Positions 10,691 to 36,540 of a DNA stretch of 36,540 bases are shown piece by piece; the first letter of the stretch is position 1; each line of letters starts with the position of its first letter. Where the stretch lies: positions 1 through 36,540 of IMG/VR virus record IMGVR_UViG_3300044619_000238; one strand, 5' to 3'. This stretch comes from a virus. A program made the translations under genes and the position numbers. Under the pieces are notes generated by a model, which saw only the letters and a list, made by a program, of their open reading frames with translations, was not told where the DNA came from and searched no databases.

Positions 10691-10823
10691 AGCCTTTGAT
10701 CAGGCCCACACCGTATTTATTGAAAAAATTATGAATCAACAAGAGATACATGCTTATCTTTCAGATATTTGTAGTACTTTTGTTCTATTATGGTGGGAAT
10801 ATGACTGCACAAATAATAGCTGA
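10671..10823 (+). CDS. Small hypothetical protein (50 aa)
   Basis: This frame begins 20 bases before the end of the VRR-NUC gene and ends TGA at 10821-10823, overlapping the sigma-factor ATG by 23 bases. The product is helical with aromatic residues near the end (STFVLLWWEYDCTNNS). It fills the 110-base gap that would otherwise separate the two genes, and such overlaps are common here. No family is recognised; it could also be an untranslated spacer. Confidence 0.45.
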   Translation: MTTLHFKAFDQAHTVFIEKIMNQQEIHAYLSDICSTFVLLWWEYDCTNNS

Positions 10824-11376
10824 GATTCTTTACAAGGAACCAATTTACAGGCAAATTTGCCGAAAGATTGCCCGAAGTAAAGATTTAGCAGATGATTTGT
10901 TTCAGCATATTGTTCTTAATGTTTTAGAGGGTAAATGTAAAGGGATTGAAGAAGCAGCCGAACAGGGTAACCTTAGATGGTACTTTGTCCGAGTATGTAC
11001 TAACCAATACCGAAGTGAAAACACATCTACATTTAGTAGAGAAATGAAACATTTTGAGCCTATCATAGATTGGAAGTTTTATGATTATAATGATGAAGAA
11101 GAAGAAGCTTATGACACCGAAGAAGATCAGGCATTTGATATTGAGTATCAAACCTGTAAAGAAATAATTGCAGAAAGGGGATGGTATGAGCAGAATTTAT
11201 TTGAACTTCATTTGCAGTATAAATCTATTAGACAATTAGCTAAAAAAACTAAAATACCAGCGAGATCAATATACAACTCAATTAAAGCAACTAAACAATA
11301 TGTCCACAATAGACTTAATTCTACACTCCCTACTTATATCCAGCTTGAGTTGGATATTTGTTATAACAATAGGTAA
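10801..11376 (+). CDS. Phage RNA polymerase sigma factor, sigma-70/ECF-like (191 aa)
   Basis: I chose the ATG at 10801 rather than 10750: the extra 17 residues of the longer frame are hydrophobic and overlap the small gene upstream. The pattern is that of a two-domain sigma factor. A region-2-like helical part includes ARSKDLADDLFQHIVLNVL (24-42) and LRWYFVRVCTNQY (58-70). An acidic linker (98-113) follows. A region-4-like helix-turn-helix spans 131-171 (LFELHLQYKSIRQLAKKTKIPARSIYNSIK). Such a factor would redirect host RNA polymerase to phage promoters, probably the late ones. The gene precedes packaging and structural genes. Confidence 0.65.
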   Translation: MTAQIIAEILYKEPIYRQICRKIARSKDLADDLFQHIVLNVLEGKCKGIEEAAEQGNLRWYFVRVCTNQYRSENTSTFSREMKHFEPIIDWKFYDYNDEEEEAYDTEEDQAFDIEYQTCKEIIAERGWYEQNLFELHLQYKSIRQLAKKTKIPARSIYNSIKATKQYVHNRLNSTLPTYIQLELDICYNNR

Positions 11377-11539
11377 AGAAGTAGATGTTAAACCATTTAA
11401 CTGTACTATCTGTATGGGCTTCTGGTTAGGTTTATTATGGTTTATTATTGTTGAACAAACTATATTGTGTTTACCACTTGCTGGATTTACTTCATTAATT
11501 ACTCAAGTTATTGACCGATGGATGATAAAACTATATTAG
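11300..11539 (+). CDS. Small membrane protein with CxxC motif (79 aa)
   Basis: Two hydrophobic segments (about residues 5-25 and 43-70) flank a short loop with NCTICMGFW, a Cys-x-x-Cys next to Phe-Trp. Similar C..C.GFW.G proteins are common small membrane proteins in phages and bacteria (DUF1360-like pattern). It overlaps the sigma-factor gene by 77 bases in another frame, so the DNA there is dual-coding. The function is unknown; the CxxC may bind metal or form a disulphide. Confidence 0.55.
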   Translation: MSTIDLILHSLLISSLSWIFVITIGKEVDVKPFNCTICMGFWLGLLWFIIVEQTILCLPLAGFTSLITQVIDRWMIKLY

Positions 11540-11790
11540 ATAAACTAATTGCAGCCAAACCTTTGGCCGATTTAATTATTGACCACAATTATTTGCCATC
11601 AGGTAATTATAATGTGGTGGTCAGTTTGTCAGAAATTTATACTTACTTGTATAAAGGTAACGTACAACTGCATTGCCCAAGCTGTGTGAGGGAAATGTTT
11701 ATTAGACTTTACCATTATTACTATGTGGATGCAATTAAAGAACTAAAACCAAAAGAAAATGGAACGAGGCAGACCAAGAAAAATAAATAG
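11518..11790 (+). CDS. Hypothetical protein with CPSC motif (90 aa)
   Basis: The protein carries HCPSC (one CxxC) in its centre, after a helical N-terminus (TILDKLIAAKPLADLII) and before an aromatic, helical segment (FIRLYHYYYVDAIKEL). The basic tail (RQTKKNK) overlaps the small-terminase start by 32 bases. It lies in the packaging operon just upstream of terS, where some phages place HNH or accessory packaging proteins, but no HNH pattern is present. A single CxxC is not enough for a zinc-finger call. Confidence 0.55.
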   Translation: MDDKTILDKLIAAKPLADLIIDHNYLPSGNYNVVVSLSEIYTYLYKGNVQLHCPSCVREMFIRLYHYYYVDAIKELKPKENGTRQTKKNK

Positions 11791-12199
11791 TCCTGAAGAA
11801 CTTTTAGAGTTATTTAATGGATATTTAGATTGGGTTAAAGAAAATCCAGTTAGAAAAATGGTATTTGTAGGTAGAGATGGGAATAAGGAATATGAACTTG
11901 TAGATAGGCCATTATCTATTGATGGATTTGAGGTTTATTGCTATACTAAGGATATTACAGTAGAGCATTATTTAAATAATAAAAATGGTTCTTATGAAGA
12001 TTTTTGCTCTATCTCTACACGTATTAAGCGGATTATCAGGGAGAATCAAATATCAGGAGGCATGGCTGGACTATACAATGCAAGTTTAACAGCAAGGATA
12101 AATGGATTAGCAGAAAAGCAAGAAACGAAAATAGAGGGTGAAGTTGCTATCTTTAAAGGAATAGATTTAGATGTTTCAAAAGACGACAGCACAAGCTAA
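11759..12199 (+). CDS. terS: Terminase small subunit
   Basis: The 146-residue protein starts MERGRPRKINSPEEL. It carries the pattern of phage small terminases: a helix-turn-helix region around DRPLSIDGFEVYCYTKDITVEHYLNN, then an EDFCSISTRIKRIIRENQISGGMAGLYNASLTARINGL segment that matches the oligomerisation part of this family. It would recognise the phage DNA and hand it to the large subunit, whose gene overlaps by 29 bases. The RGRPRK start is an AT-hook-like DNA-binding motif. Confidence 0.75.
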   Translation: MERGRPRKINSPEELLELFNGYLDWVKENPVRKMVFVGRDGNKEYELVDRPLSIDGFEVYCYTKDITVEHYLNNKNGSYEDFCSISTRIKRIIRENQISGGMAGLYNASLTARINGLAEKQETKIEGEVAIFKGIDLDVSKDDSTS

Positions 12200-13340
12200 A
12201 ATAGCCAGTTTAAAAAAACGGATTAGGATAGTTCAAGGAGGTACATCCTCAAGTAAAACATTTAGCATATTACCATTATTAATTACCTACGCTATTCAAA
12301 AACCAATGACTGAAATAAGCGTAGTTAGTGAAAGCATACCACATTTAAAAAGAGGTGCAATTAAAGACTTCTTAAAAATAATGATGTGGACTAATAATTA
12401 CAAAGATGACCGCTGGAATAAATCCAGTTTAAAATATAAGTTTAGTAATAATTCATTTATTGAGTTTTTTAGTGCTGACCAACCGGATAAATTAAGAGGT
12501 GCCAGGAGGGATGTATTATTTATTAATGAGTGCAACAATATAGGTTTTGAAGCATATCAACAGTTAGCGATACGGACTAAGAATTTTATTTATTTAGATT
12601 ATAATCCCTCTAATGAGTTTTGGGTGCATGAGCATTTATTAAACGATAATGATTCTGATTTCATTATACTTACTTATAAAGATAATGAAGCATTGGATTC
12701 TGCCATTGTTAGGGAAATTGAAAAGGCAAAGGATAAAGCAGAAACATCAAGCTATTGGGCCAACTGGTGGAAAGTTTACGGATTAGGTTTATTAGGTAGC
12801 TTACAAAATACTATCTTTGAATTTAATCAAGTTGATAGGATACCAAACGATGCTGAATTTATTGCCTATGGTTTAGATTTTGGATTTAGTTCTGATCCAG
12901 CTGCATTGGTAGCTGTTTATAAAATGAATGGTGAATTATTTGTAGATGAATTGATTTATCAAACAGGATTAACTAATTCAGATTTAACTCAGCGATTTAG
13001 GGCCATTGGCATTAATGAATATGATAAGATTATAGCAGATAGTGCCGAGCCTAAGAGCATTGAGGATATTTACAGAAACGGATATAAGGCAGTTGAGGGT
13101 GCGAGAAAAGGGCCAGACAGTATTAGGGCTGGAATTGATTTAATAAGGCAGCATAAATTAAATGTAACTAAAAGCAGTTTGAATTTAATTAAGGAGTTAA
13201 GGGCTTACCAATGGCAGCAAGATAAGGATGGAAATATACTTCCTAAACCGATTGACTTCAACAACCATGCTATTGATAGTTTACGATATGCTTGTTTAAA
13301 TAGTTTAACACAAAATAAAGGAGATTACTTAATAATATAA
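12171..13340 (+). CDS. terL: Terminase large subunit (ATPase and nuclease)
   Basis: The packaging motor is nearly unmistakable: Walker A GGTSSSKT (23-30), Walker B VLFINE (115-120), and a C-terminal RNase H-like nuclease with Asp236 in YGLDFGFSSDPAAL, Asp290 in IIADSAEPKSI and Asp369 in NNHAIDSLRYA. At 389 residues it is of the compact PBSX/Terminase_3 type. This type usually accompanies headful (pac) packaging, but the mode cannot be decided here. It follows terS, but the portal gene lies 12.7 kb away rather than next door as in most phages. Confidence 0.93.
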   Translation: MFQKTTAQAKIASLKKRIRIVQGGTSSSKTFSILPLLITYAIQKPMTEISVVSESIPHLKRGAIKDFLKIMMWTNNYKDDRWNKSSLKYKFSNNSFIEFFSADQPDKLRGARRDVLFINECNNIGFEAYQQLAIRTKNFIYLDYNPSNEFWVHEHLLNDNDSDFIILTYKDNEALDSAIVREIEKAKDKAETSSYWANWWKVYGLGLLGSLQNTIFEFNQVDRIPNDAEFIAYGLDFGFSSDPAALVAVYKMNGELFVDELIYQTGLTNSDLTQRFRAIGINEYDKIIADSAEPKSIEDIYRNGYKAVEGARKGPDSIRAGIDLIRQHKLNVTKSSLNLIKELRAYQWQQDKDGNILPKPIDFNNHAIDSLRYACLNSLTQNKGDYLII

Positions 13341-14951: not shown

Positions 14952-15618
14952 AGCAACTATTGAAAATGCAAAGGCAAAGGCCGGTATTGACTTTGATTTC
15001 TTTGCTTTGGATCAGGGTAGCACAGATGGAGTATTTAATCTAATTGCGCCTAATGTTACTTATTATGTAAAGAAAAAAGAAAATATAGGTGTAGCATCTG
15101 GATTTAATTTTCTATGGAATATGGCCAAACACATGGATTATGATTTCATTTGTAACATAGGTAATGATATTGATTTACCACAAAACTGGTTAAAGGAATT
15201 TTACGAAACCTATGTAGCAATAGATAAAGAGCATCAGTATTTAGCTATTCATTCAGTTGAAGCTTTACCAAGTCAAAAGATAACAGTAAACAATAAACAA
15301 TATATCCCCTCCGATACTATATTCGGATGTACTTTTTTTAATATATCGTTATTAGATTATGTAGGATATTTTAATACTGCTTATAATCCGTATGGTTTAG
15401 AGGATAGCGAATATACTTACAGATGCCATAAGTCAGGAGTTATTTGCGGATATTTAGATATTGGAACTGCACACCATACCGGAAGTCCTTATGGCCAAGA
15501 TGACAATGGCGAATATAGGAGAATGAAAGATGAAAGCCTTAAAAAGAATGCGGTTATTTATGGTGAAGAAATTGAAAATATGAACAGATTAAATAATTAT
15601 TATAAGCCTTATGTATAA
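14884..15618 (+). CDS. GT2-like (GT-A) glycosyltransferase (244 aa)
   Basis: The N-terminus KIAVCFITLNRESLTKATIENA is the first strand and helix of GT-A family 2 transferases, followed by FFALDQGSTDG (the D.gS.DG motif) and ICNIGNDIDLPQNWL, whose NDID is the metal-binding DxD position. FGCTFFNISLLDYVGYFNTAYNPYGLEDSEY is the typical acceptor-side segment ending in the catalytic ED. The gene overlaps the LpxA-like gene by 68 bases, and this overlap is needed because the first strand lies in it. It is the third gene of the glycan cassette. Confidence 0.78.
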   Translation: MSNTSQPKIAVCFITLNRESLTKATIENAKAKAGIDFDFFALDQGSTDGVFNLIAPNVTYYVKKKENIGVASGFNFLWNMAKHMDYDFICNIGNDIDLPQNWLKEFYETYVAIDKEHQYLAIHSVEALPSQKITVNNKQYIPSDTIFGCTFFNISLLDYVGYFNTAYNPYGLEDSEYTYRCHKSGVICGYLDIGTAHHTGSPYGQDDNGEYRRMKDESLKKNAVIYGEEIENMNRLNNYYKPYV

Positions 15619-15805: not shown

Positions 15806-15846
15806 CCTTGTATTCATAGTGTAAGGTGTTTTGTGGTTAATGTAGG

Positions 15847-15875
15847 CCCTCTATTCGCGCAATAGAGGGTTTTTT
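15847..15875 (+). terminator. Intrinsic terminator after the packaging/glycan operon
   Basis: CCCTCTATT (15847-15855) and AATAGAGGG (15861-15869) form a perfect 9-bp stem with loop CGCGC, followed by six T (15870-15875). Transcription must restart before the tail genes at 15914. Confidence 0.9.
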
Positions 15876-15899
15876 ACTTAAACACATATCTGTTTATGT

Positions 15900-15909
15900 T
15901 TATACTTAC
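15900..15909 (+). promoter_or_regulatory. TTATACTTAC box 1, candidate phage late promoter or start signal
   Basis: TTATACTTAC ends exactly 4 bases before the ATG at 15914 and lies 24 bases after a terminator T-run. The same 10-mer with the same spacing precedes the genes at 22675 and 25609. Confidence 0.55.
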
Positions 15910-15913
15910 AGAT

Positions 15914-16501
15914 ATGACCTGGAAAGAAACAACCATTGAACAGTATCAGCAAATACTTGCTATTGCTAAAACTGATTTACCTGATTTTAACAAAGAGATT
16001 GAACTTGTAAGCTATTTATTTAATATCTCAAAAAATGAGATAATGAACTATCCATTAGAGAAATTTAAGTATTTGGCAAAAAAGATAGATTTTTTGGAGG
16101 ATGTTTATGAGGGTGAAATGCAGACTGTATTTAATTTGGATGGTGTGGAGTATGAAGTTCATTGGAAAATGGAAACTAAAACAGCTGGTCAATTTATTGA
16201 TTTATCCGAATTAACAAAGGATCCTGAATTAATTAATGATAATTTACATAAGATATTGGCGGTTATTTGCTTACCTAAAGGAAGTAAATACGATGGCAAT
16301 ATATTAGAACGTGCCGAAGTCTTTAGAAGTAAATTAACAATGGATGTGGTATTTCCGATTGCTGGTTTTTTTTTGACTGTTTTAAACAATTCGTTGCCAG
16401 ATATACAGGATTATTTGAGCAAAAAGATACAGAGCCAACAGAGGGAATTATTGACAATGATAAGGGATTCTATGACCATTGGGGATGGTACTGTACTTTA
16501 G
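15914..16501 (+). CDS. Tail assembly chaperone, short form (gpG-like, 195 aa)
   Basis: I prefer the ATG at 15914 (MTWKETTIEQYQQ) to the one at 15896: the TTATACTTAC box lies within the longer reading and sits 4 bases before 15914, as at two other genes. The product is largely alpha-helical with a small beta part (MQTVFNLDGVEYEVHWKMETK), like phage tail chaperones that coat the tape measure protein during tail assembly. At 16366-16374 a T9 run allows a -1 shift into a frame that continues for 87 codons, giving the longer form. It is first in the tail operon, as expected. Confidence 0.7.
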   Translation: MTWKETTIEQYQQILAIAKTDLPDFNKEIELVSYLFNISKNEIMNYPLEKFKYLAKKIDFLEDVYEGEMQTVFNLDGVEYEVHWKMETKTAGQFIDLSELTKDPELINDNLHKILAVICLPKGSKYDGNILERAEVFRSKLTMDVVFPIAGFFLTVLNNSLPDIQDYLSKKIQSQQRELLTMIRDSMTIGDGTVL

Positions 16502-16635
16502 ATGAATTGGCAAAAGAGGATGTGCTTAGGATTAATGATATTATAAATTTGAATGTAGTTGAATTTCTTAACTGGTTATCATATTTAAAAGACAAAAGGA
16601 AATGGCAGTTGCAAAAGGCGATGTTGCAAAAATAA
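15914..16635 (+). CDS. Tail assembly chaperone, -1 frameshift extended form (gpGT-like, about 240 aa)
   Basis: After about 153 zero-frame codons the ribosome can slip -1 on T-TTT-TTT (16366-16372). The -1 frame is open to TAA 16633-16635 and has no ATG of its own near its beginning. It encodes FDCFKQFVARYTGLFEQKD and then YDHWGWYCTLDELAKEDVL, ending with NLNVVEFLNWLSYLKDKRK. The W-G-W...L..LA..D......I..L.V.E.L.WL.Y pattern is typical for the extension domain of these chaperones. The extended frame overlaps the next gene (ATG 16602) by 34 bases. Without a shift this 130-base stretch would be non-coding in a very compact genome. Confidence 0.7.
16366..16374 (+). promoter_or_regulatory. Programmed -1 ribosomal frameshift site (T9 slippery run)
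   Basis: In the zero frame the run reads GGT TTT TTT TTG, so T-TTT-TTT fits the X-XXY-YYZ slippery heptamer. A shift of -1 enters the open frame that ends at 16635. Confidence 0.7.
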
Positions 16636-17234
16636 TTAGGCAGTTTGGTAATGATTTTAGTAAAGATGACTTGCTAAACAAAGCAACCTTATCAGCTATT
16701 ACTTTGCTTTTAGATGACTATGGCGATGAAATTATTAAAAGGCTTCGTGATAATTTAGAACGCAAAAAGAAAAGGGCCGGAGGTGTTTTAATAGATACAA
16801 TGGAAGCCATTGCATCTGAGGAGGGAGGTAAACCTACATTAGAATTATTACTTGAAGATTATTATAAATATGTTAATGATGGGCGAATAGGTAAGAAAAG
16901 CAAGGGAGGTATTGACCGTAATAGGATTATTAATTTTCCACCTAAAGGCCCTAAAGTACCACCATTTGAGCCAATAAGTAAATGGATTAGATTTCAGTCA
17001 GGATTTAGTTCTGCTAAATTAGGAATGAGAGTTAGACAGACCAGCCGAGTAGCGGATAAATTAAAGAAAAGCAGAATGGTAGATAAGATTAGATGGGGTA
17101 TTTATTGGAACGGTATTGAGCCTACATATTTCTATACTGATGTAATTAATTCTGATTTATACAAAGCAATAGAAGAAGATTTAATAGCCATAACAGGCGA
17201 GGGATTACAGATTAATTTAACAACTTTTAAATAA
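16602..17234 (+). CDS. Probable tail or neck structural protein (210 aa)
   Basis: The protein is basic in its middle (NLERKKKRAGG...RIGKKSKGGIDRNR) with helical ends. It carries a PPKGPKVPPFEPISKWIRFQSG segment, reminiscent of HK97-gp10-like tail completion proteins, which have a basic loop and an 'I..W....' helix. Position between the chaperone and the tail-tip genes supports a tail role. The match to a named family is weak. Its stop overlaps the next ATG as TAATG, so translation is coupled. Confidence 0.5.
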   Translation: MAVAKGDVAKIIRQFGNDFSKDDLLNKATLSAITLLLDDYGDEIIKRLRDNLERKKKRAGGVLIDTMEAIASEEGGKPTLELLLEDYYKYVNDGRIGKKSKGGIDRNRIINFPPKGPKVPPFEPISKWIRFQSGFSSAKLGMRVRQTSRVADKLKKSRMVDKIRWGIYWNGIEPTYFYTDVINSDLYKAIEEDLIAITGEGLQINLTTFK

Positions 17235-18529
17235 TGGCAATAACAGCTAACCAGCAACCTCAATCATTCCAGCCAGTTTACAATCCGTATGTATTTGTGC
17301 TGAGTTCAGATAATTCTGGTAACTTTAATTTTAAGATAAATTTTGTCGTAGTAGATAGCACAAATAGCAGTAATCCTGTAACTGTAGCTACATTGCAGAA
17401 TCCAACTAATACAGATGGATATGCTGTATTTGATTTATCAAGAGTAATAAGAGATTATATTACTGATAATTTTAGTTTAGGAGTTACTTTAGCTTCTAAT
17501 TGTGGTAATTCAATTAAGCGGTTTACTTTTTATGCTCAGGAGGTTTACTCAGCAAGTGCATCTGGAACACCAGCAGCTACAGGTACTATTTATGAATATG
17601 GCGCAATAGCAGATACTACAAGTAAGTACTTATGGAATGCAGCATTGCCTTTTGATGAATTTGCCACATATCAAAAGAATAATTATTTGCTTAAATATGG
17701 AACTTACACAGCAAATAAATGGCTTACTAATGGCCCTATAGATACAGGTATTAATATGTCATCAAATCAAAATGCCTATGGTTATTTGCTTTGTGAAAAT
17801 TTAGATAGTGGAAATGCGAATGAAAGTTTGGTGCAAAGCACTATAATTAAGACTTATAATTCAGCTGGAAGTTTATTAGGTACTTATGAAGTGGATATTG
17901 ATTTTGCTCAAAGTACAACTAATTTAAACGGATTTATGATAAGAATACCAGTAGGAACTTATAATATTGCTCAGATAGGTGCTTTAGATTTTATTAGTGG
18001 AAGTCAGCCTATCATAACAAGTAATGTAGCTTATTATACCGTACATGGTAAACATCCCACCTTTGGCCAGACTTATGGATTTAGAGTTAATATAGTTGAT
18101 TATTGTAACAGTCCGCAAATGTTTAGGCTGCATTGGTTAAACAGATTAGGCGGTTTTGACTGTTTTAATTTTGATAGATACTATACTGAAACTTCACAAA
18201 TTGAACGCAAATTTTATAAAAGACCGTATGGCAATGTAACATCCGGATCATGGTCTTATGCTGTTTCGGATAGGAATAACGTAAATATGATTAATACCAG
18301 TCGTAAACAATTTGTAATTCAAACTAATTGGATCAGTGAAACAGAAGCTGAGTGGTTAGAAGAATTAATGACAAGTCCGGTAGTATATTTAGAAGAATCA
18401 GCAACTGTTTTAAAAGCAGTAAATATAATTGATACTTCTTATGAAACTAAATATAGACAAAAGGATAAAGTATTTAATCTATCCTTAACTATTGAATTAA
18501 CTTATGACTATAAATCACAGACTTACTAA
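17234..18529 (+). CDS. Tail structural protein, possibly distal-tail/baseplate-like (431 aa)
   Basis: The protein is rich in Asn, Ser, Thr and Tyr with alternating beta segments throughout (FQPVYNPYVFVLSSDNSGNFNFKINFVVVD; YAVFDLSRVIRDYI; RMFRL-like repeats; FVIQTNWISETEAEWLEELMTSPVVYLEE). The C-terminal 'ISETEAEWLEELMTSPVVY' segment plus final strands is seen in tail-tip proteins of Bacteroidetes phages. Enzymatic motifs are absent. It is followed with one-base coupling by an even larger tail-tip-like protein; together they could be Dit- and Tal-like. Assignment to a precise position in the tail is inference. Confidence 0.5.
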   Translation: MAITANQQPQSFQPVYNPYVFVLSSDNSGNFNFKINFVVVDSTNSSNPVTVATLQNPTNTDGYAVFDLSRVIRDYITDNFSLGVTLASNCGNSIKRFTFYAQEVYSASASGTPAATGTIYEYGAIADTTSKYLWNAALPFDEFATYQKNNYLLKYGTYTANKWLTNGPIDTGINMSSNQNAYGYLLCENLDSGNANESLVQSTIIKTYNSAGSLLGTYEVDIDFAQSTTNLNGFMIRIPVGTYNIAQIGALDFISGSQPIITSNVAYYTVHGKHPTFGQTYGFRVNIVDYCNSPQMFRLHWLNRLGGFDCFNFDRYYTETSQIERKFYKRPYGNVTSGSWSYAVSDRNNVNMINTSRKQFVIQTNWISETEAEWLEELMTSPVVYLEESATVLKAVNIIDTSYETKYRQKDKVFNLSLTIELTYDYKSQTY

Positions 18530-20865
18530 TGAGGGCTAAGATTTACATAAATGAAACTTTGATTGATGTAAATGATGATTTAAACTTATCGTTTACTTAT
18601 AACATATCAGACATTAGAGAGCCTGAGAGCAGACAAGCAAACTACTCTAAAACAATAACAATTCCAGCAAGTAAGACTAATAATAAATTATTCAGTCAGT
18701 TATTTGAGATAGGTAGGGTAATAGGCAGCACAGGTTTAAATTTTACTCCTGATTTTAATCCGAATAAAAAAGCAAATGCAAGGGTAACTATTGATGATTT
18801 AGAGGTAATGAATGGCTTTTGTCAAGTGCTAAAAGTCAATAAACAGAATTATGAGCCTACGAGTTATGATATTGTAGTAATAAGTAATGTTAAAAATATA
18901 TTTGAGGATATTGGCGAGGATGAATTAACAAGCTTAGATTTATCAGAATTTGACCAGCTTTATACTACTTCAAATGTAAATGCCTATAGTTATGGTAATC
19001 CATCCCCATCTTATACATTAGGATCAGGTGTAATTTACAACTCAACTTATAACGGTGTTGAGCCTATTGGCACTTATAAGGTAGCCCCATATCCGGCTAT
19101 ATTTGTTAAAACATTAGTAGATAAGATATTTGCTAAATATGGTTATCAGTATAGTAGTAACTTTTTTAATACTAATTATTTTAAAAAGCTGTGCATACCG
19201 TTTACTAAAAGCAAATATTCATTAAATAATGCTGAGGTAGTTGAAAGAACTTTTAAACTTTATTATGGTACTATTAACTATGGTGGTTTTTTTGATGTAC
19301 CATTTAGAACTGGTGAAGCCTTTTTTACTAAAAATCCTGGTGTAAATAAAAACAATAGTGCTAATTTATCATGGGGTGAATTATTAGACCAGAGTAATTT
19401 ATATGATAGGACTATAGATGCGTATAGTGTTAAGATAAAAAAAGGAACTAATCATACAGTTTATTTTAGTGCTACAATAAATAGTATAACATTCGACTGT
19501 CCTCAAGCCATTACTAATGGTGATTTAGTATTTACATTAAACTTTAAATTATACAGAAATAGAGCAAGTGTTTTAACATTATTAGCTACTTCAAGCCATC
19601 CATATTATGTAGGTGCAACAACACCCAATCCAGGTACACCAGATAAAATTATAATGGGGCCACAATCATTTGATATTGCTGTTAATGAAACTGCATATCC
19701 GAATGATGAATATATTATGGTACTTAATTATACCACTACAGGCGAATTATACACATCTACAATAGTACCAATGCAAGTATCTATTTATTCAAATGATACT
19801 AATAGTTATGACTTTTATAATGTAGTAAGTAATTCTGGAATAGTTTTAAATACATCACAAACATTAGAAGTTAATAAACTTATCCCAGATAAAATAAAAA
19901 TTAAAGATTTCCTAAGCAGTTTAATTAAGTGCTTTAATTTACAGTTAGAGCAGGATAAACAATTTGCTAAAAAATTAAACATAGAGCCTTATAACGATTA
20001 CTTTGGAAGTGGTACTGAGAAAGACTGGACAAGTAAATTAGATATTGCTTCCATTGATATTATTCCAATGGCTAATTTAACTACTAATGTATTTAAGTTT
20101 GGATTTCAGAATGATGATGACTTAATCAATAAAGATTATTCAGAGAAATATCCTGAAGTTTATGGAGATTATGAGGTGGCCATTGATAATGATTTTGTTA
20201 ATGGCACTAAGGAAATTAAACCAATATTTGCAGCATCCCCAGCAACCAGAAGAAATGTTACAAGTTTTATAGGCGAGGTTACATATTTAGCAAAGGATGA
20301 AGATATACCAAGAGATGCTAAGATTAGAATGGTTTGGTATAATGGATTAGAAACTGATAATATTACAAGTCCTACAGTTGCTATTAGGTTTGATTTAGCA
20401 CCATCCGAGTTATATTATTCGACAAGTACATTAACCAATGCTACCTTATACGGTAAATTTTGGGCCAAGTATATTGATGAAATAACGGATAAGGACAGTA
20501 AAATGGTTATCTGTAATATGGCTTTAACTGCATTAGATATTGCAAATTTTAAATTTACTGACAATATATTTGTAGATGGCCATTTCTTTAGAGTAAATAA
20601 AATTATTGATTTTAATCCATTATCCGAAGGATTGACAAAAGTTGAATTATTAAAGATTAAGTCTTTTGCACCATTACAGGAAGATGTGGTAACTGTTTAT
20701 GAATCGTTTAGAAGTTTTGGAATAATAGATGGAAGTAAGGATGAGGTTAGGTCATTAGGTGCAACAAGTTTCTATAATATAATCGAGGGAAGTTTTAATA
20801 ACGTAAGAAGTATAACCGCAACCAGCACTATAGGTAAAATTGATGGTGGCGAAAATATAATATAA
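18529..20865 (+). CDS. Large tail-tip/tail-associated structural protein (778 aa)
   Basis: It starts MRAKIYINETLIDVNDDLNLSFTYNI, followed by a patch SRQANYSKTITIPASKTNNKLFSQLFEIG, a start shared by large tail proteins of Bacteroidetes phages. Further on is a region like a tail-hub (DKIKIKDFLSSLIKCFNLQLEQDK..., about 455-480), where Tal proteins have a conserved helix, and the C-terminal 60 residues form a short repetitive beta tail (VRSLGATSFYNIIEGSFNNVRSITATS). No hydrolase motif is seen. I read it as the tail-hub protein. It ends two bases before the tape measure ATG. Confidence 0.55.
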   Translation: MRAKIYINETLIDVNDDLNLSFTYNISDIREPESRQANYSKTITIPASKTNNKLFSQLFEIGRVIGSTGLNFTPDFNPNKKANARVTIDDLEVMNGFCQVLKVNKQNYEPTSYDIVVISNVKNIFEDIGEDELTSLDLSEFDQLYTTSNVNAYSYGNPSPSYTLGSGVIYNSTYNGVEPIGTYKVAPYPAIFVKTLVDKIFAKYGYQYSSNFFNTNYFKKLCIPFTKSKYSLNNAEVVERTFKLYYGTINYGGFFDVPFRTGEAFFTKNPGVNKNNSANLSWGELLDQSNLYDRTIDAYSVKIKKGTNHTVYFSATINSITFDCPQAITNGDLVFTLNFKLYRNRASVLTLLATSSHPYYVGATTPNPGTPDKIIMGPQSFDIAVNETAYPNDEYIMVLNYTTTGELYTSTIVPMQVSIYSNDTNSYDFYNVVSNSGIVLNTSQTLEVNKLIPDKIKIKDFLSSLIKCFNLQLEQDKQFAKKLNIEPYNDYFGSGTEKDWTSKLDIASIDIIPMANLTTNVFKFGFQNDDDLINKDYSEKYPEVYGDYEVAIDNDFVNGTKEIKPIFAASPATRRNVTSFIGEVTYLAKDEDIPRDAKIRMVWYNGLETDNITSPTVAIRFDLAPSELYYSTSTLTNATLYGKFWAKYIDEITDKDSKMVICNMALTALDIANFKFTDNIFVDGHFFRVNKIIDFNPLSEGLTKVELLKIKSFAPLQEDVVTVYESFRSFGIIDGSKDEVRSLGATSFYNIIEGSFNNVRSITATSTIGKIDGGENII

Positions 20866-20866
20866 A

Positions 20867-22657
20867 ATGGCAAAAGAGGTAAGTTTAAAGATAGTTGCAG
20901 ATGCGAGTAAAGCAACAGAAGCAGCGAAAGGATTAAAGCAACAGTTAAAAGAAGCTACAAAAGAAGCACAGGCCTTAGTAGCATCCGGAGATACAAGTTC
21001 AAAGGCATATAAAGAAGCAACTAAACGAGTTGCTGAATTAAAAGACGAGTTACAAGATTTTAACGATGAGGTTAAGGCTTTAGATCCAGGACAGAAATTT
21101 CAAACTATTGCCGGAGTAGCAACAAGTATAGCTGGTGGCTTCCAAGCTGCTCAGGGTGCAATGGCCTTATTTGGTGCTGAAAGTAAAGATGTAGAAAAGG
21201 CCTTATTAAAAGTACAAGCAGCCACAGCATTGGCGCAAGGTATTGACCAAGTAAGGGAGTTTGGTAAATATTTTGGTTTAGCAAAAGATGCTATTGGTAA
21301 TAGTATTAAATCATTATTTACTCTTAGAGGTGCATTAATAGCAACTGGTATAGGTGCATTTTCAGTTGCAGTAGGTGTGTTAATAGCTAATTGGAAAGAT
21401 TTAGTATCATGGATTGATAAAACATTTCCAGCATTAGGAGGTTTAGGTAATTTATTCGATAGAATAAAGAAAATAGCGATGGGCAGTTTAGGCTCAATTA
21501 TTGAAAGTTTTAAAGTAGTTGGTGAGGTTATTGGTAATGTTTTTAAAGGTGAATTTAGCAAAGCAGTTGATGTTGCTGGAACTTTTGGAACAAGAGTAAG
21601 TCAGGCATACACAAAAGCATACATTGAAGAAAACAATAAACAGGCTGCTGAAAGAGAAGCTAAGTTATTGGAGGGTATGATTAAAACCCATGAAAGAGAA
21701 GTTAAGTTAATTGAAGCACAGGGTAAAGATAGTTATGCAGCAAAAAAGAAACTATTAGAAGAAGAATTAAAATTATTAGAATTTCAAAAAACTAAAGAGA
21801 GTAACGAGTATAAGGATAAATATCTTGAATTACAGATATTAGAGATAGAGCATCAAAAAAAGATTTCTGATATAAAGAAAAAAGCAGAAGAAAAAGCAAC
21901 TGCTGATTTTTTTAACAATTTAAAATTAGAATATGAAAAACAACAAGGCTTAAATCAAATTAAAGAAGATGCTGCTAAAATTGATGAAGATAGGAATAAA
22001 AAAACTTTAGAAAATGTAACAGCCTTTGCTAATAAAAAAATAGAGATAGCAACTTTTGATGCAGAAAAACAGAAAGAAATAGTTGCTGAAAGAAACAAAC
22101 AAATATTTAACGAAGAAATAGCTATAGCAAATGCAAGATTACAAGTTGCCTCTGATATTACAAATGGCCTTACTGCTTTAGGAAATGCTTTTATAAAAGA
22201 CCAAAAAAAGTTAGAAAAATTTAATAAAGCAGCTGCATTAATTCAAATTGGAATTGATACTGCAAAAGCTATCTCAGCTTTAGTTGCTGCTTCAAATGCT
22301 AATCCAGCTAATGCGGTTACTTTTGGAGGTGCTGGAATTGCTCAATTTGGGGCTGGACTTGCTCAAATATTAACTAATATTGCAAAAGCTAAACAGATAT
22401 TAAGCAGTTCAAGTTCAGGATCAAGTACACCAACGTTAGGCGGTGGCGGTGGAATCCCATCTGCAGGAGGTAGTAATATGCCACAAACAAATGCACCTGG
22501 TGGATTTACTTCAGATGTTAGTGGTCAAAGAGTAACTAATCAATCAGGCGAGGGTGCTAACCAACAAGGTCAATTTAGAGTTTATGTATTAGAATCTGAT
22601 ATTACTGCAACTCAGGATGGGGTGGCTGGTATTAAAAGAAAAGCAAAAGTAATGTAA
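20867..22657 (+). CDS. Tape measure protein (596 aa)
   Basis: The composition is that of tape measure proteins: an Ala/Lys/Glu-rich coiled-coil N-terminus (residues 1-75), a hydrophobic stretch about 150-176 (LRGALIATGIGAFSVAVGVLIANW), a long heptad-rich coiled coil about 255-420, a second hydrophobic region about 455-505 and a Gly/Ser-rich linker with GGGGG near 525. Such proteins set tail length; at 596 residues the tail would be short, somewhere under 100 nm by the usual length rule. It is unusual that it follows rather than precedes the tail-tip genes. Confidence 0.75.
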   Translation: MAKEVSLKIVADASKATEAAKGLKQQLKEATKEAQALVASGDTSSKAYKEATKRVAELKDELQDFNDEVKALDPGQKFQTIAGVATSIAGGFQAAQGAMALFGAESKDVEKALLKVQAATALAQGIDQVREFGKYFGLAKDAIGNSIKSLFTLRGALIATGIGAFSVAVGVLIANWKDLVSWIDKTFPALGGLGNLFDRIKKIAMGSLGSIIESFKVVGEVIGNVFKGEFSKAVDVAGTFGTRVSQAYTKAYIEENNKQAAEREAKLLEGMIKTHEREVKLIEAQGKDSYAAKKKLLEEELKLLEFQKTKESNEYKDKYLELQILEIEHQKKISDIKKKAEEKATADFFNNLKLEYEKQQGLNQIKEDAAKIDEDRNKKTLENVTAFANKKIEIATFDAEKQKEIVAERNKQIFNEEIAIANARLQVASDITNGLTALGNAFIKDQKKLEKFNKAAALIQIGIDTAKAISALVAASNANPANAVTFGGAGIAQFGAGLAQILTNIAKAKQILSSSSSGSSTPTLGGGGGIPSAGGSNMPQTNAPGGFTSDVSGQRVTNQSGEGANQQGQFRVYVLESDITATQDGVAGIKRKAKVM

Positions 22658-22660
22658 TAA

Positions 22661-22670
22661 TTATACTTAC
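22661..22670 (+). promoter_or_regulatory. TTATACTTAC box 2, candidate phage late promoter or start signal
   Basis: An exact copy of the 10-mer, again ending 4 bases before the ATG (22675), here in front of the first head gene. It lies right after the stop codon of the tape measure gene, with no terminator between. Confidence 0.55.
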
Positions 22671-22674
22671 AATT

Positions 22675-23394
22675 ATGAACACATATTATTTAGAAGTAAA
22701 TGAGAATGATGAAACAGGAGTAACTGCTGTTGCATTCGTAGATAAACCAGCCATTGAATTGAACTGGAAGCAATTTAAAAGTGATTTTGTAGTTGAGCCA
22801 AGACATGGCGAAAGTCAAGAAGAATTTGTTAGTAGATGTATAGGTGTTGAAGTAGGCAATGGTAAAGAAACAGATCAAGCTGCTGCTATTTGTTATGCTA
22901 AATGGGATGCTAAATCATTTAGCTTCCAAACTACCGACAAAGAACGTAGAATTGTAAGCGGTGTATTGATGTTAGCCAATACTCCTATCTATAGGAGGGA
23001 TGATAAGATAGGGGAATATAATGTGATTTTTACTCCAGATACCATTGAAAAAATAGTAAATAAATTTTTTAAACAAGGTAATCAAGCATCAGTAAACGGA
23101 ATGCACAATGCAGATTTTACTATTGATGGTGTTTACATGTTTGAATCTTTTATCATTGATAAGTCAAGAGGTATAAAAGCACCAGAGGGATTTGGTGATA
23201 TACCGGAGGGCAGCTGGTTTGGTAGCTTTAAAGTAGAAAATCAAGATATTTGGGATAGCTACATTAAGACCGGAGTATTTAAAGGCTTTAGTGTTGAGGG
23301 CATGTTTAATCAATCACTTACAAAAGCTGATAATGCTTATAGTCAGATGCTAAATTTATTGGATGAGTTACTTCTACTGGCACAAAATAAATAA
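22675..23394 (+). CDS. Prohead protease, XkdF/S78_2-like, with an inserted segment (239 aa)
   Basis: The protein starts with LEVNENDETGVTAVAFVDKPAIE, the usual N-terminus of XkdF-like phage proteases. The catalytic pair is visible: His144 in NGMHN and Ser206 in GFSVEG. It should cut the scaffold and trim capsid proteins during head maturation. Between about residues 42 and 80 lies a Cys-containing segment (RHGESQEEFVSRCIGVEV...ETDQAAAICYAKWD) that is not part of the protease core and looks like a separate short motif. The gene starts the head operon, behind a TTATACTTAC box, and is followed by scaffold and capsid genes. Confidence 0.8.
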   Translation: MNTYYLEVNENDETGVTAVAFVDKPAIELNWKQFKSDFVVEPRHGESQEEFVSRCIGVEVGNGKETDQAAAICYAKWDAKSFSFQTTDKERRIVSGVLMLANTPIYRRDDKIGEYNVIFTPDTIEKIVNKFFKQGNQASVNGMHNADFTIDGVYMFESFIIDKSRGIKAPEGFGDIPEGSWFGSFKVENQDIWDSYIKTGVFKGFSVEGMFNQSLTKADNAYSQMLNLLDELLLLAQNK

Positions 23395-23398
23395 TTAA

Positions 23399-23407
23399 AA
23401 TACTTAC
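23399..23407 (+). promoter_or_regulatory. Weak TTATACTTAC-like box (AATACTTAC) before the scaffold gene
   Basis: AATACTTAC matches the box at all but one of its last nine positions, but lies 17 bases before the ATG at 23425 rather than 4. It may be a weaker member of the set or chance. Confidence 0.25.
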
Positions 23408-23424
23408 TATTAAAGACAAATATC

Positions 23425-24015
23425 ATGTCAGACAAAAACAATTTATTAATCGAAAAATTTGAACAACTTAAAAATGTGTTTACAAGCACATTCAGCAGTC
23501 AATCTGCAGAAGTTGTATCAGAATCTTTTGCAACTGTTAAAACAGCTGAGGGGGTAGAATTAACCATCGAGGGTGAGTTAGCAGTAGGCTCAAAAGTTAC
23601 AATGCAAGATACCAGCGGCCAATTAGTACCAGCACCTGAGGGTGCGCATACGTTGGAAGATGGAACTGTTATTGTTATACTTAATGGGGCTATCTCTGAA
23701 ATAAATCCAAAAGCTGAAGCCCCAAGTGTTGAGGTGGAAGTAGAAAACAAAGGATTGGATTTTACAACACAAATTAATACTATTTCTGAGGTATTAAATT
23801 CTTTAACTGCAAGAATTGAGGGTATTGAAAAAACAGTAGCTGCTCAAACTTTTGCTAAAGTTGAAGATTTAGAAAGCATTAAAGAAGTAGTTACTAAGAC
23901 TTATGCAGTAGTTGAGGGGTTAGTAAATACTCCATCTGCAACAGTTGAAAATAAATTTAGCACTAATAAACGTGCAGATAAAATAAACGAATTAAGAAAC
24001 CTATTAAACAACTAA
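23425..24015 (+). CDS. Probable scaffold protein (196 aa)
   Basis: This acidic protein has a small beta domain in the middle (VELTIEGELAVGSKVTMQDTSGQLVPAPEGAHTLEDGTVIVI) and helical, coiled-coil-like ends (LDFTTQINTISEVLNSLTARIEGIEKTVAAQ). It sits between prohead protease and major capsid protein, the standard scaffold position, and acidic helical proteins are typical there. Assignment rests on position and composition; no family motif is seen. Confidence 0.7.
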   Translation: MSDKNNLLIEKFEQLKNVFTSTFSSQSAEVVSESFATVKTAEGVELTIEGELAVGSKVTMQDTSGQLVPAPEGAHTLEDGTVIVILNGAISEINPKAEAPSVEVEVENKGLDFTTQINTISEVLNSLTARIEGIEKTVAAQTFAKVEDLESIKEVVTKTYAVVEGLVNTPSATVENKFSTNKRADKINELRNLLNN

Positions 24016-24019
24016 GATC

Positions 24020-24931
24020 ATGTCATTTGTAGTATCAAGTTTAACAAATTATACTAACGAGCAAAGCAAAAAATTAATCGCTGCCGTTCAGTTCAAAGCA
24101 GAAACAGCTGCATTAGCTGCAATTCAAACAGGTGTAAAGAGTGCTGCTGCTTTACAAATATTAACAGTTGATCCAGTGCCTCAAGATGGTGCTTCATGTG
24201 GATTTAACGCATCAGGTACAACTACATTCACTCAAAGAACAATAACTGCTAAATCAGTTAAGTTTGAAGAGATTATGTGTTTAAGAGATTTAGAAACTAA
24301 ATGGACACAAATTCTTTTAAGAAACGGTCAGAAATATAGCGAAGCTGATGTACCAGCAGTTATTATTGATGAAATCACTAAGAAAATCATGGCACGTTTA
24401 GAAACTGCGGATTGGCAAGGTGATACTACTTCTGGTAATGCTTACATCAAAACTTATGATGGGTTAGCTAAAATTATTAAGGCTGCTTCTGGAGTAGTAC
24501 AAGCAACTTCTTCTACAATTAACGAAACTAACATCCGTACAATTATGCGTGATATTGTTTCTAAAGTACCAGATGCTTTAAAAGGAAACCCTGAATTTAC
24601 TATATTCTGCGGGTATGATGCTTACACTACTTATTTAAATAAGATTAGTGCTGACAACCATTTCCATATGTTTGATGCTTCTGTTTATGGTGAAATGCGA
24701 GTTGAAAATTCACCTTATAAATTAAAAGCAGTTCATGGATTAGATGGCACAAATGAGATTTATGCTGCTTTACCATCTAACTTAGTATTAGGTGTAGATA
24801 TGGAGGGTGAAGAAGAAAAAGCTGCATTGTGGTATTCTCAAGATGATGACAATGTTAAGTATTCATTCCGTTTCCGTAGAGGCTGGCAGATTGCAATACC
24901 ATCAGAGGTTATTAAATACGCTAACACTTAA
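24020..24931 (+). CDS. Major capsid protein (303 aa)
   Basis: Order (protease, scaffold, this gene), size and composition fit an HK97-fold major capsid protein. It is balanced alpha/beta, with a long helix IIDEITKKIMARLETADWQGD (about 115-135, spine-helix-like), a P-domain-like segment (LKGNPEFTIFCGYDAYTTYLNKI) and an A-domain-like end (NEIYAALPSNLVLGVDMEGE...KYSFRFRRGWQIAIPSEV). Codons are more regular than in its neighbours, as for highly expressed genes. It is followed by a terminator. A direct motif match to a named family is not claimed. Confidence 0.8.
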   Translation: MSFVVSSLTNYTNEQSKKLIAAVQFKAETAALAAIQTGVKSAAALQILTVDPVPQDGASCGFNASGTTTFTQRTITAKSVKFEEIMCLRDLETKWTQILLRNGQKYSEADVPAVIIDEITKKIMARLETADWQGDTTSGNAYIKTYDGLAKIIKAASGVVQATSSTINETNIRTIMRDIVSKVPDALKGNPEFTIFCGYDAYTTYLNKISADNHFHMFDASVYGEMRVENSPYKLKAVHGLDGTNEIYAALPSNLVLGVDMEGEEEKAALWYSQDDDNVKYSFRFRRGWQIAIPSEVIKYANT

Positions 24932-24962
24932 TTAACTAATTAATTTAACCTTAAAGCCCTCA

Positions 24963-24985
24963 CCACCATAATGGTGGGGGTTTTT
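24963..24985 (+). terminator. Intrinsic terminator after the capsid gene
   Basis: CCACC (24963-24967) pairs with GGTGG (24973-24977) around ATAAT, extended by flanking CC/GG pairs, and is followed by TTTTT (24981-24985). It may reduce readthrough into the next gene relative to capsid. Confidence 0.75.
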
Positions 24986-25003
24986 AATTAAAACATAAAA
25001 AAC

Positions 25004-25516
25004 ATGCCTTGTTTATTAACATCCGGATATACATTAGACTGCGCAGATAGCGTAGGAGGTATAAAAAAAATATACATCACAGAGTTAGCGAATAAAGCTT
25101 CGATAACTGCTGCAAGTGGAATTATAACAGCATTTACTTTAAGTGCTGGTAAAAAATTCTTCACTTATGAATTGCAAAAAGAAACTTCAAACTTAGTAGA
25201 AAACATCACTCGCAATAGTGTTAATGGTACTACATTTTATGAGCAAGTATTACAATTTACTATTCGCAAAATGGCTGCATCATTAAGAAACGAGATTAAG
25301 TTATTAGCACAAAATAACGTAATGATTATAGTATTAGACCGTAATGGCAAATACTGGTTATTAGGTGAAAACAACGGATGCGAGATGACTAATTCAACTG
25401 CTGCTACAGGTACTGCAATGGGTGATTTTAACGGATATACTTTGAATTTTCAAGGTATGGAAGAAGCACCATGCCAGGAAGTAAGCTCAGGATTAATCGC
25501 TGCCTTAACAGCATAA
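25004..25516 (+). CDS. Probable major tail tube protein (170 aa)
   Basis: It starts MPCLLTSGYTLDCADSVGGIKKIYITEL, a recognisable start for a frequent Bacteroidetes phage structural protein. The remainder is beta-rich (FFTYELQKETSNLVENITRN...YEQVLQFTIRKM) with a long middle helix and ends in GYTLNFQGMEEAPCQEV, the strand pattern of tail tube subunits. It has its own terminator behind it, as expected for an abundant virion protein. Tail tube is my best reading; a minor head protein cannot be excluded. Confidence 0.6.
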   Translation: MPCLLTSGYTLDCADSVGGIKKIYITELANKASITAASGIITAFTLSAGKKFFTYELQKETSNLVENITRNSVNGTTFYEQVLQFTIRKMAASLRNEIKLLAQNNVMIIVLDRNGKYWLLGENNGCEMTNSTAATGTAMGDFNGYTLNFQGMEEAPCQEVSSGLIAALTA

Positions 25517-25547
25517 CAAAAGTCTTTATCGTAGTTTAGGCTTTTAG

Positions 25548-25575
25548 CCCCATGTTGATGGCATGGGGTTTTTTT
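25548..25575 (+). terminator. Intrinsic terminator after the tail tube gene
   Basis: CCCCATG (25548-25554) and CATGGGG (25562-25568) form a 7-bp stem with loop TTGATGG, followed by seven T (25569-25575). Confidence 0.88.
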
Positions 25576-25594
25576 GTTACATAATACTATTGAT

Positions 25595-25604
25595 TTATAC
25601 TTAC
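25595..25604 (+). promoter_or_regulatory. TTATACTTAC box 3, candidate phage late promoter or start signal
   Basis: The third exact copy of the 10-mer, ending 4 bases before the ATG at 25609 and 19 bases after a terminator T-run. Terminator-then-box repeats the arrangement at 15847-15909. Confidence 0.55.
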
Positions 25605-25608
25605 TAAT

Positions 25609-26007
25609 ATGATACAGATAACAAAGGGAACTACTAATAATGTGGCATTAACCTTAACAGAAAAATGCACATTAACAAGCCCATATTACTTATTTGTTTT
25701 TCAATCAGATGAAACAAGGAATTTATATAAGTTTATCGCTGCTGATACTTCTACCCATCCTGATAGGTATAATTTATTTGCTATTGTTGAAACAGATAGC
25801 AGTCCTGATCCTTTGGCTGGTGAGATTGAGTTGCCGATTGTTGGATTTTATAAATATAAAGTTTATGAGCAAACCAGTTCAACTAACTTAAATCCGGCAC
25901 TTGCAACTGGAATTGTGGAGGTAGGTAAAGTACAAGTAATTGACACACCAGCAGCAGATGACAAATTAAATAATACTAATAATATTAACTACGTTTATAA
26001 TGAGTAG
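25609..26007 (+). CDS. Small beta-rich structural protein (132 aa)
   Basis: The product starts MIQITKGTTNNVALTLTEK and looks like a compact beta sandwich (YYLFVFQSDETRNLYKF...GEIELPIVGFYKYKVYEQTSSTNLNP). An acidic Asn-rich tail follows. It has its own upstream TTATACTTAC box and overlaps the portal gene by 8 bases. I recognise it only as a typical small virion protein of Bacteroidetes phages, without firm function; a role at the head or tail surface is likely. Confidence 0.55.
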   Translation: MIQITKGTTNNVALTLTEKCTLTSPYYLFVFQSDETRNLYKFIAADTSTHPDRYNLFAIVETDSSPDPLAGEIELPIVGFYKYKVYEQTSSTNLNPALATGIVEVGKVQVIDTPAADDKLNNTNNINYVYNE

Positions 26008-35059: not shown

Positions 35060-36540
35060 TGGCTAATAGATATTTTTTAAATATCGGTGCTAATTGGGGC
35101 GATACTGCTAACTGGAGTGATACTTCAGGCGGTACAGGTGGGTTTAGTGTGCCAACTAATGTAGATGATGTTTTCTTTGATGCTAATAGTGGTAATTGTA
35201 CGGTTAATGCTTCTGCAAGAACTGCTAAAACATTAAATTTTACAGGTTATACGAATACTATAACAATGAGTAATACCATTACTGTAAGCGGTAATGTTAC
35301 TTTAGCTGCTGGTATGGGAATAGCTGGTGCAAGTGCTTTGATAGTGAATGAAACATCAACTTTAACAAGTAACGGTAAAACGTGGAGTGCGCCATTTACA
35401 TTTTCGGGTACTTCTAAAACTTTTACTTTAGGTGATAATTGGGCTATATCAGGACAAGTAAATTTATCTGGAACTACCGCAACTACAATAAATAGTAATA
35501 CATTAACAAGTAGTGGTAATTTAACTTCTACAACTTCCGCCACAACATCAGGAACTACAAATATATCTTTGACTGGTGGTACGTGGTCAAATTCAAGTAC
35601 AGGTGCTTTAAGAAATAATTTAACATTTACAAGTGGTACAATAACAATAAGCGGTACTGTATATTATAATACAAAAACTTTAACTTATACATCAGGAACA
35701 ATTACAACAACTGGAAGTACGTTAATTATAGGTGATTTTGCAAATACTACTTTAAATACCGGTAGTTTATCTTGGAATAATTTATCAATAGCAAATCAAT
35801 TAACTATAACTTTACAAAGCGATTTAAATATAGGTGGATTATTAACAGTAAATTCTGGTAATCATCTCCATACATTTAACGGTACTTTCAATATAAATTG
35901 TAGTGGAGGTTTAACTATAAATTCAACTGGGTTAGTTCAAGGTACTGGTGCAACTACTTTAAATATATTAGGTGGAACTTGGACTGGAGGTCAAATTAGG
36001 TTAAATACAAATATAAACGGTAACGTAACACTTACTAATATTAATTATAGTAATGGAACTTTAACTTATGTTTCTGGAGATATAACTTTAGTTGGTACAG
36101 CTACCGTATCTGGTGCTTTAAATGTGGCTGGTATTTTTTGGAATAATTTAACAACAGGTAATAATACTTTATTATCCGATTTAAACGTAAGGGGATTATT
36201 AACAGCAACAGGTAATATTACATTTAGTGGAGCATATAATGTTAATTTATACGGAGGTATTACGCATCCTGGATATTTACAATGTTTTGGAACTCCTAAA
36301 CCGATAATAAATTTATATGGTGGTATTTTTACTTCAAATCAAATTATAGATACAACTATTAATTTATTAGGTAATGTAACTTGGCAAAGTGTAGGTTTAG
36401 ACTCTAATTCTACAATAAATTATATTTCTGGAATTATTAATGGAACAAATACAAGTTTATTATCAATAAATCAAGGAGGTAATACATTATTAAATTTTGA
36501 TAAAATATCTATTTTAAGACGAGTAAATTTTACAAATAAT
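35059..36540 (+). CDS. Large repetitive tail-fibre/adhesin-like protein, copy 2, 3'-truncated
   Basis: ATG is coupled to the preceding stop (TAATG), and the frame is open to the end of the window, so the C-terminus is missing. The product begins MANRYFLNIGANWGDTANWSDTSGG, a start like that of several phage beta-solenoid fibres. Three repeat units are visible (LxGG at 35575, 35971 and 36319), about 132 and 116 residues apart, with the TLTY-G and WNN elements of copy 1. The first 196 residues are nearly the same as copy 1; after that only the repeat scaffold is shared. It is probably the same gene family and a host-contact protein. Confidence 0.7.
   Translation, partial: MANRYFLNIGANWGDTANWSDTSGGTGGFSVPTNVDDVFFDANSGNCTVNASARTAKTLNFTGYTNTITMSNTITVSGNVTLAAGMGIAGASALIVNETSTLTSNGKTWSAPFTFSGTSKTFTLGDNWAISGQVNLSGTTATTINSNTLTSSGNLTSTTSATTSGTTNISLTGGTWSNSSTGALRNNLTFTSGTITISGTVYYNTKTLTYTSGTITTTGSTLIIGDFANTTLNTGSLSWNNLSIANQLTITLQSDLNIGGLLTVNSGNHLHTFNGTFNINCSGGLTINSTGLVQGTGATTLNILGGTWTGGQIRLNTNINGNVTLTNINYSNGTLTYVSGDITLVGTATVSGALNVAGIFWNNLTTGNNTLLSDLNVRGLLTATGNITFSGAYNVNLYGGITHPGYLQCFGTPKPIINLYGGIFTSNQIIDTTINLLGNVTWQSVGLDSNSTINYISGIINGTNTSLLSINQGGNTLLNFDKISILRRVNFTNN
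35111..35645 (+). repeat. Long direct repeat, copy 2 (partner at 1-535)
   Basis: Exact offset 35110 from copy 1. Mismatches begin at 35238, and about 13 are seen before divergence near 35640; there is no gap in this part. Some changes alter the protein (Asp to Asn, Gly to Ala, Val to Ala), so it is not simply the same DNA read twice without error. Confidence 0.9.

Follow-up and report, generated by a model that had tools for sequence, protein, structure and literature searches.

The window, the whole stretch of DNA analyzed here, is an entire IMG/VR virus record of 36,540 bases. The host of the virus appears to belong to the Bacteroidota; relatives of its terminase in bacterial genomes come chiefly from Mucilaginibacter, Chitinophaga and other Bacteroidota, and a megablast comparison of the window with phage records gave no matches. 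All features described below lie on the + strand. A gene for an ECF-like sigma factor of 191 amino acids (10801-11376, in a reading frame open from 10750) precedes that of the large terminase (12171-13340), which served as the anchor of the sigma neighborhood. Farther downstream lie a tail-chaperone-like gene (15914-16501), a prohead protease gene (22675-23394; Pfam Peptidase_S78_2, XkdF type), a gene in the scaffold position (23425-24015), and a pre-portal gene encoding 132 amino acids (25609-26007), which is the first of the portal unit and whose orthologs carry clade-specific boxes. The portal and terminase were also recognized in homology searches. The chaperone, scaffold and pre-portal assignments rest on gene order; the chaperone-like protein has no PHROG or Pfam match, and the scaffold-position protein has a weak match to an unnamed PHROG.

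The 10-mer TTATACTTAC lies at 15900-15909, 22661-22670, and 25595-25604, and each copy is followed by four bases and the ATG of the gene in the tail-chaperone position (15914), the prohead protease gene (22675), or the pre-portal gene (25609), respectively. These positions had been reported in a first-pass annotation and were confirmed here. In total the 10-mer occurs five times in the window, always on the + strand, against an expectation of 0.37 and a maximum of two in 100 shuffled sequences; the two further copies, at 11637 and 12664, are inside open reading frames. The nine-base box TATACTTAC (15901-15909, 22662-22670, and 25596-25604), followed by four bases and ATG, was observed three times where 0.01 was expected; the observation is real and exceeds chance. 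As had also been noticed, two of the boxes directly follow intrinsic terminators (15846-15870 and 25547-25569), and a weaker form, AATACTTAC (23399-23407), stands 17 bases before the ATG of the scaffold-position gene. This variant is genuine and is kept in relatives whose flanks have changed.

At each of the four intergenic sites, the scaffold site included, we found a second short element whose first base is always 17 bases before the box and which is present either exactly or with one mismatch: ACATA at 15884-15888, which is the same in relatives, AAAAG at 22645-22649 (one mismatch), ACAAA at 23382-23386, and ACATA at 25579-25583. This upstream element was absent from the first-pass annotation. 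At the scaffold site, relatives keep it together with the variant box. All three copies of TATACTTAC within coding sequence (11638-11646, 12665-12673, and 15412-15420) lack the upstream element, and the first of them is probably not a promoter. The bipartite pattern with the exact box occurs four times in the window, each time between genes, and 30 shuffled sequences contained no exact copy. The window satisfies one criterion for phage-sigma-dependent late promoters, namely conserved short elements at fixed spacing before several late or structural genes, and shows a putative two-part promoter of the form ACAwA-N12-WATACTTAC.

Boxes in close and distant relatives

Using 42 loci from a search with the protease as our set of relatives, we found that TATACTTAC-N4-ATG is kept in the seven closest (protease 76-99% identical) wherever the site is covered, and that it stands before the same three genes. 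In the two most diverged of these close relatives (L008 and L010), all three sites are kept and the neighboring bases have changed. The pre-portal site of L008 carries the box twice in tandem. The close relatives also bear on the start of the chaperone gene. In L008 and L010, AGG or ATT takes the place of the ATG at 15896, and neither the box nor the ATG at 15914 differs from the window; because the former codon is not conserved, we place the start at 15914, in agreement with the shift that the first-pass annotation had proposed.

In relatives with 36-44% identity in the protease, TATACTTAC is absent from these gene starts. We considered its absence at about 40% identity as a refutation and dropped that reading upon finding a different box there. 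At the same gene starts, more distant relatives have CTATTTA, ACTTTATA, ACGTTATA, or AGTTATA, 5-8 bases before the ATG. CTATTTA-N5 precedes the chaperone-region, protease and pre-portal genes in L026 and L029, and CTATTTA occurs with N6 or N8 in L012, L016 and their kin. On the contig of L044, ACTTTATA stands at N5 or N8 before eight gene starts, and all ten copies of the 8-mer are on the coding strand. Relatives of the terminase add ACGTTATA-N5 (L179, L220, and L229) and AGTTATA-N5 (L168).

A one-mismatch de novo search for 8-mers was too noisy, and a search for exact 7-mers, combined with control offsets, succeeded. With offsets fixed between 3 and 9, the score of the best exact 7-mer exceeded 6 in 17 of 170 loci; no locus reached this at the control offsets 20-26 and 40-46. 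These 17 loci include pieces of shared contigs and come from some 12 contigs in total, of which two are low-complexity; the high scores of L042 (ATATATA) and L032 (poly-A) were set aside as apparently of that kind. Since the boxed sites share descent, such counts overstate their independence.

The upstream element is likewise visible beyond the close relatives. Among 56 deduplicated sites from all clades, ACA peaks at position -17 relative to the box (14 sites, with 0-5 at every other tested position), although in clade C no peak was seen there. An alignment of CTATTTA sites (n = 24) has a conserved patch from -20 to -13 relative to the box (G, G, T, then A-rich), with A at -17 in 96% and at -14 in 92%, followed by a nearly featureless spacer.

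The pre-portal gene allowed boxes and terminators to be compared across orthologs. A profile of its protein gave 80 loci among the matches listed, with 43 distinct upstream sequences. After removal of near-duplicates, a terminator and a box were detected together in 22 regions, a box without a detected terminator in five, and neither in four, such that the box is present in every one of the 22 distinct regions with a detected terminator. In all four regions with neither, the gene is inside an operon and abuts its upstream neighbor. Within the window, the gene at 25004 has a terminator upstream and no box. This predicted layout recurs in dozens of related viruses, each group using a signal of its own.

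The ECF-like sigma factor and its neighborhood

The sigma protein of the window matches the PHROG sigma-factor family phrog_1740 only weakly (E 1.7e-4) and, taken alone, has no Pfam match. A profile built from 17 homologs matches the ECF sigma factor SigW over both domains (SigW 25-185; E 1.1e-6). Four of the 17 homologs match Sigma70_r2, which the window protein does not, and eight match the PHROG family. A structure model of modest confidence (pLDDT 67) has a sigma2-like part (residues 1-80) and a sigma4-like part (residues 108-176), and it matches almost only sigma factors. By Foldseek alone no match reached an E value under 0.001; the assignment rests mainly on the family profile. By profile and model, again with modest confidence, the protein satisfies the domain criterion for an ECF (group 4) sigma factor, with regions 2 and 4 present and regions 1.1 and 3 absent. 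A further criterion for a phage-sigma-dependent late promoter, that the phage encodes a sigma factor, is fulfilled by homology only.

Of the 38 viral loci with enough upstream sequence, at least 28 have a sigma homolog on the TerL strand, 0.7-7 kb upstream of that gene; the other ten had no sigma match. Homologs are present in contigs of the boxed clades A, C, D, E, and K; the profile missed the clade C protein, which was identified by visual inspection of its location and sequence pattern. In clades B and M the sigma factor was not found, and their contigs end in that region. Loci in bacterial genomes had a sigma match in only 4 of 80 cases. Most prophages with terminase relatives in bacterial genomes have neither sigma factor nor box by these methods, and the system is therefore limited to some lineages. 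The sigma genes of L217, L220, L171, L186, L209, and L230 are preceded by a host-type promoter, TTG-N-TAnnTTTG. This arrangement is compatible with a cascade in which the host sigma factor drives the phage sigma gene and the phage sigma factor in turn reads the late boxes, although evidence from neighborhood is not proof. Likewise, the earlier suggestion that the sigma factor at 10801 reads the boxes is supported by its conserved neighborhood and ECF-type homology, and has not been demonstrated directly.

Inferred start sites and rival readings

The base before the ATG is T at 43 of 50 boxed starts and at 151 of 534 other starts (Fisher p ~1e-15; the sites are related by descent). In addition, 81% of boxed sites have T at -7 and 87% have A at -6, whereas at other starts A leads at almost every position. 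T at -1 fits a pyrimidine/purine transcription start at T/A, were transcripts to begin there. Several sites of clades D and E have G at -1 and a spacing of 6-8. In the host-type promoters of F. johnsoniae, 4-5 nt separate the end of the -7 element from the start site (PMC6847099), and at phiEco32 gp36 promoters RNA starts 6-8 bp after the element (PMC8948821). With either geometry, transcription here would start at the A of the ATG or within a few bases of it. That the 5' end lies at or near the AUG is inferred from spacing and T at -1, without transcript data.

We propose that each repeat forms the downstream (-10-like) half of a late promoter and that the window has four such promoters, ACAwA-N12-WATACTTAC, which the host RNA polymerase core with the ECF-like sigma factor (10801-11376) would read once the latter is made. 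The promoters would restart transcription after terminators (15914 and 25609) or within the cluster (22675 and 23425). At three of them RNA would start at the A of the ATG or within about three bases of it, so that these mRNAs would be leaderless or nearly so; the scaffold promoter would give a leader of about 12 bases. We consider it probable that the boxes belong to late promoters read by host polymerase with the phage sigma factor and that they give leaderless or near-leaderless late mRNAs. The two elements, their fixed spacing and conservation, the link with terminators, and the boxes of other clades at the same genes can be read from the DNA alone. Recognition by the sigma factor, transcription from the boxes, its late timing, its start at the ATG, and leaderless translation are inferences.

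The first-pass annotation had left open whether the box is a phage-specific late promoter with near-leaderless mRNA or a translation start signal, and the comparative evidence, in the absence of mapped transcript ends, favors the former. A signal acting in the RNA would account for the exact N4 before ATG at the three window sites, but across sites the distance from box to ATG varies (4, 5, 6, 8, or 17) while that from upstream element to box remains 17. It is thus the spacing between the two elements that is fixed, and not their distance from the ATG, which befits a promoter and not a translation signal. The box does not pair with the 16S tail (0.7-0.8 kcal/mol, compared with -13.0 kcal/mol for a Shine-Dalgarno control). 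Moreover, boxes follow terminators, the same gene has no box where it is inside an operon, box sequence changes between clades at the same genes, and T at -1 is unlike the A-rich context of other starts. We therefore regard a translation signal as very improbable. We give equally little credence to the box as an operator bound by a phage regulator of the DNA-binding kind. Operon starts that share a sequence-specific repeat could carry such a site, but the box has no apparent palindrome or dyad, its length and register agree between clades, and a second element 17 bases upstream, with the box about 6-13 bases before the inferred start, is the layout of a core promoter.

A less easily dismissed alternative is that these are late promoters read by a sigma factor of the host, either the primary one or an ECF type, possibly aided by an activator from the phage, whose own sigma-like protein would then have another role. 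The phage sigma factor is linked to the boxes by neighborhood only, and some relatives have no detectable sigma factor. The box also partly resembles the host -7 element TAnnTTTG, with its initial TA and internal TT; as the first-pass annotation had pointed out, it lacks the key TTTG, which host promoters carry almost without exception (PMC6847099). The window has no excess of TAnnTTTG (34 on the + strand, 31.4 expected), and the box does not qualify as a sigma-ABfr promoter; a simple sigma-70 promoter scan of the window found no excess. In addition, the box differs between phage clades at the same gene, and the host-type sequence precedes some phage sigma genes instead. We consider reading by a host sigma factor unlikely, though not negligible.

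Relation to known late transcription systems

Late promoters read by a phage sigma factor would have several partial parallels. Like the present virus, phiEco32 combines a phage sigma factor, gp36, with a short AT-rich box (tAATGTAtA) before late genes (PMC8948821); its middle/late promoters have a single element and a different sigma factor, whereas the window has an upstream element too and its box abuts the start codon. Phage 7-11 gp47 late promoters are bipartite (GTAAtg-16-aCTA), and relatives keep the positions and change the sequence, as here (PMC8948821). They differ in their enterobacterial host and consensus, and no coupling to ATG was seen in the portion of the source at hand. T4 likewise pairs a diverged sigma factor, gp55, with a -10-like element at structural genes, but it lacks a -35 sequence and depends on gp33 together with the clamp gp45 (PMC7892883), whereas here a region-4-like HTH is kept and the upstream element is present. 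A T4-type late promoter, with a single -10-like element and no -35, was accordingly rejected, given the second element at -17 from the box. Host sigma-ABfr promoters (TTTG or TAnnTTTG) belong to the same phylum and have a similar distance from element to start (PMC6847099, PMC9723704), but they contain the TTTG that the window boxes lack, and most host mRNAs carry a leader.

The Bacteroidota make hardly any use of Shine-Dalgarno sequences and have few leaderless mRNAs: these make up 5.5% in F. psychrophilum (PMC9723704), 5' UTRs shorter than 10 nt about 3.7% in B. thetaiotaomicron (PMC7366714), and of 37 Bacteroidetes/Chlorobi genomes one had leaderless signals (PMC3160421). Descriptions of late transcription in Bacteroidota phages are scarce, and in the literature searched we found no published description of their late promoters or of leaderless phage mRNA.

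The ECF sigma factors SigW, SigH, and SigL match the phage protein in family profile and in fold over regions 2 and 4, with low identity. ECF promoters have the elements GGAAC and GTC, unlike those of the window. The system is best read as a new variant of late transcription driven by a phage sigma factor. With modest confidence, we lean towards a broader reading as well, of a widespread system in tailed phages of Bacteroidota in which an ECF-type phage sigma factor starts exactly at the AUG and yields leaderless mRNAs for virion proteins, and in which the clades have repeatedly altered the -10 specificity without change to the upstream element or to where the promoters stand. A swap of -10 specificity at kept positions between related phages offers a clean system for the co-evolution of sigma factor and promoter. 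If the proposal is true, the boxes would supply ready-made late promoters, with cognate sigma factors, for a phylum with few known, would provide a means of correcting start-codon calls, and would form a natural test of how Bacteroidota ribosomes initiate on leaderless mRNA.

Terminators and proposed promoters at gene starts

Upstream of the sigma gene, which encodes an ECF-like phage sigma factor, the related loci L217 and L220 carry a terminator followed by a promoter of the host type, TTG-N-TATATTTG, and the leader from this promoter to the sigma start codon is ~10 nt in both. In the related locus L008, a second copy of the box, the -10-like half of the proposed late promoters, lies in tandem upstream of the pre-portal gene (12919-12938).

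Within the window, in the region 24956-25004, a strong terminator separates the gene in the capsid position from the next gene, at 25004, and we found no box between this terminator and that gene. The same boxless arrangement is present in the relative L061. Expression of the gene at 25004 must depend on read-through or on another promoter.

Contig quality and record ends

In the contig that carries L008 (G001; L052, L060), frameshifts and stop codons interrupt the terminase and sigma reading frames, possibly reflecting low sequence quality. The two ends of the window share an imperfect direct repeat (1-668 versus 35111-35784; 675 bases, 92.6% identity). Either part of a gene has been duplicated, or the assembly of a circular or terminally redundant genome overlaps itself here.

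Small cysteine-containing proteins beside the sigma gene

Two of the phage groups compared, clades A and C, encode a small membrane protein adjacent to the sigma factor, and a pair of cysteines is conserved in it (window 11300-11539; L075:9410-9736). Judged by eye, several clades also have a gene for a small Cys-x-x-Cys protein as a neighbour of the sigma gene (window 11518-11790; L220:701-1060; L217:2071-2433; L229:5363-5752; L075:8637-8876), and the sigma factor might have this protein as its partner.
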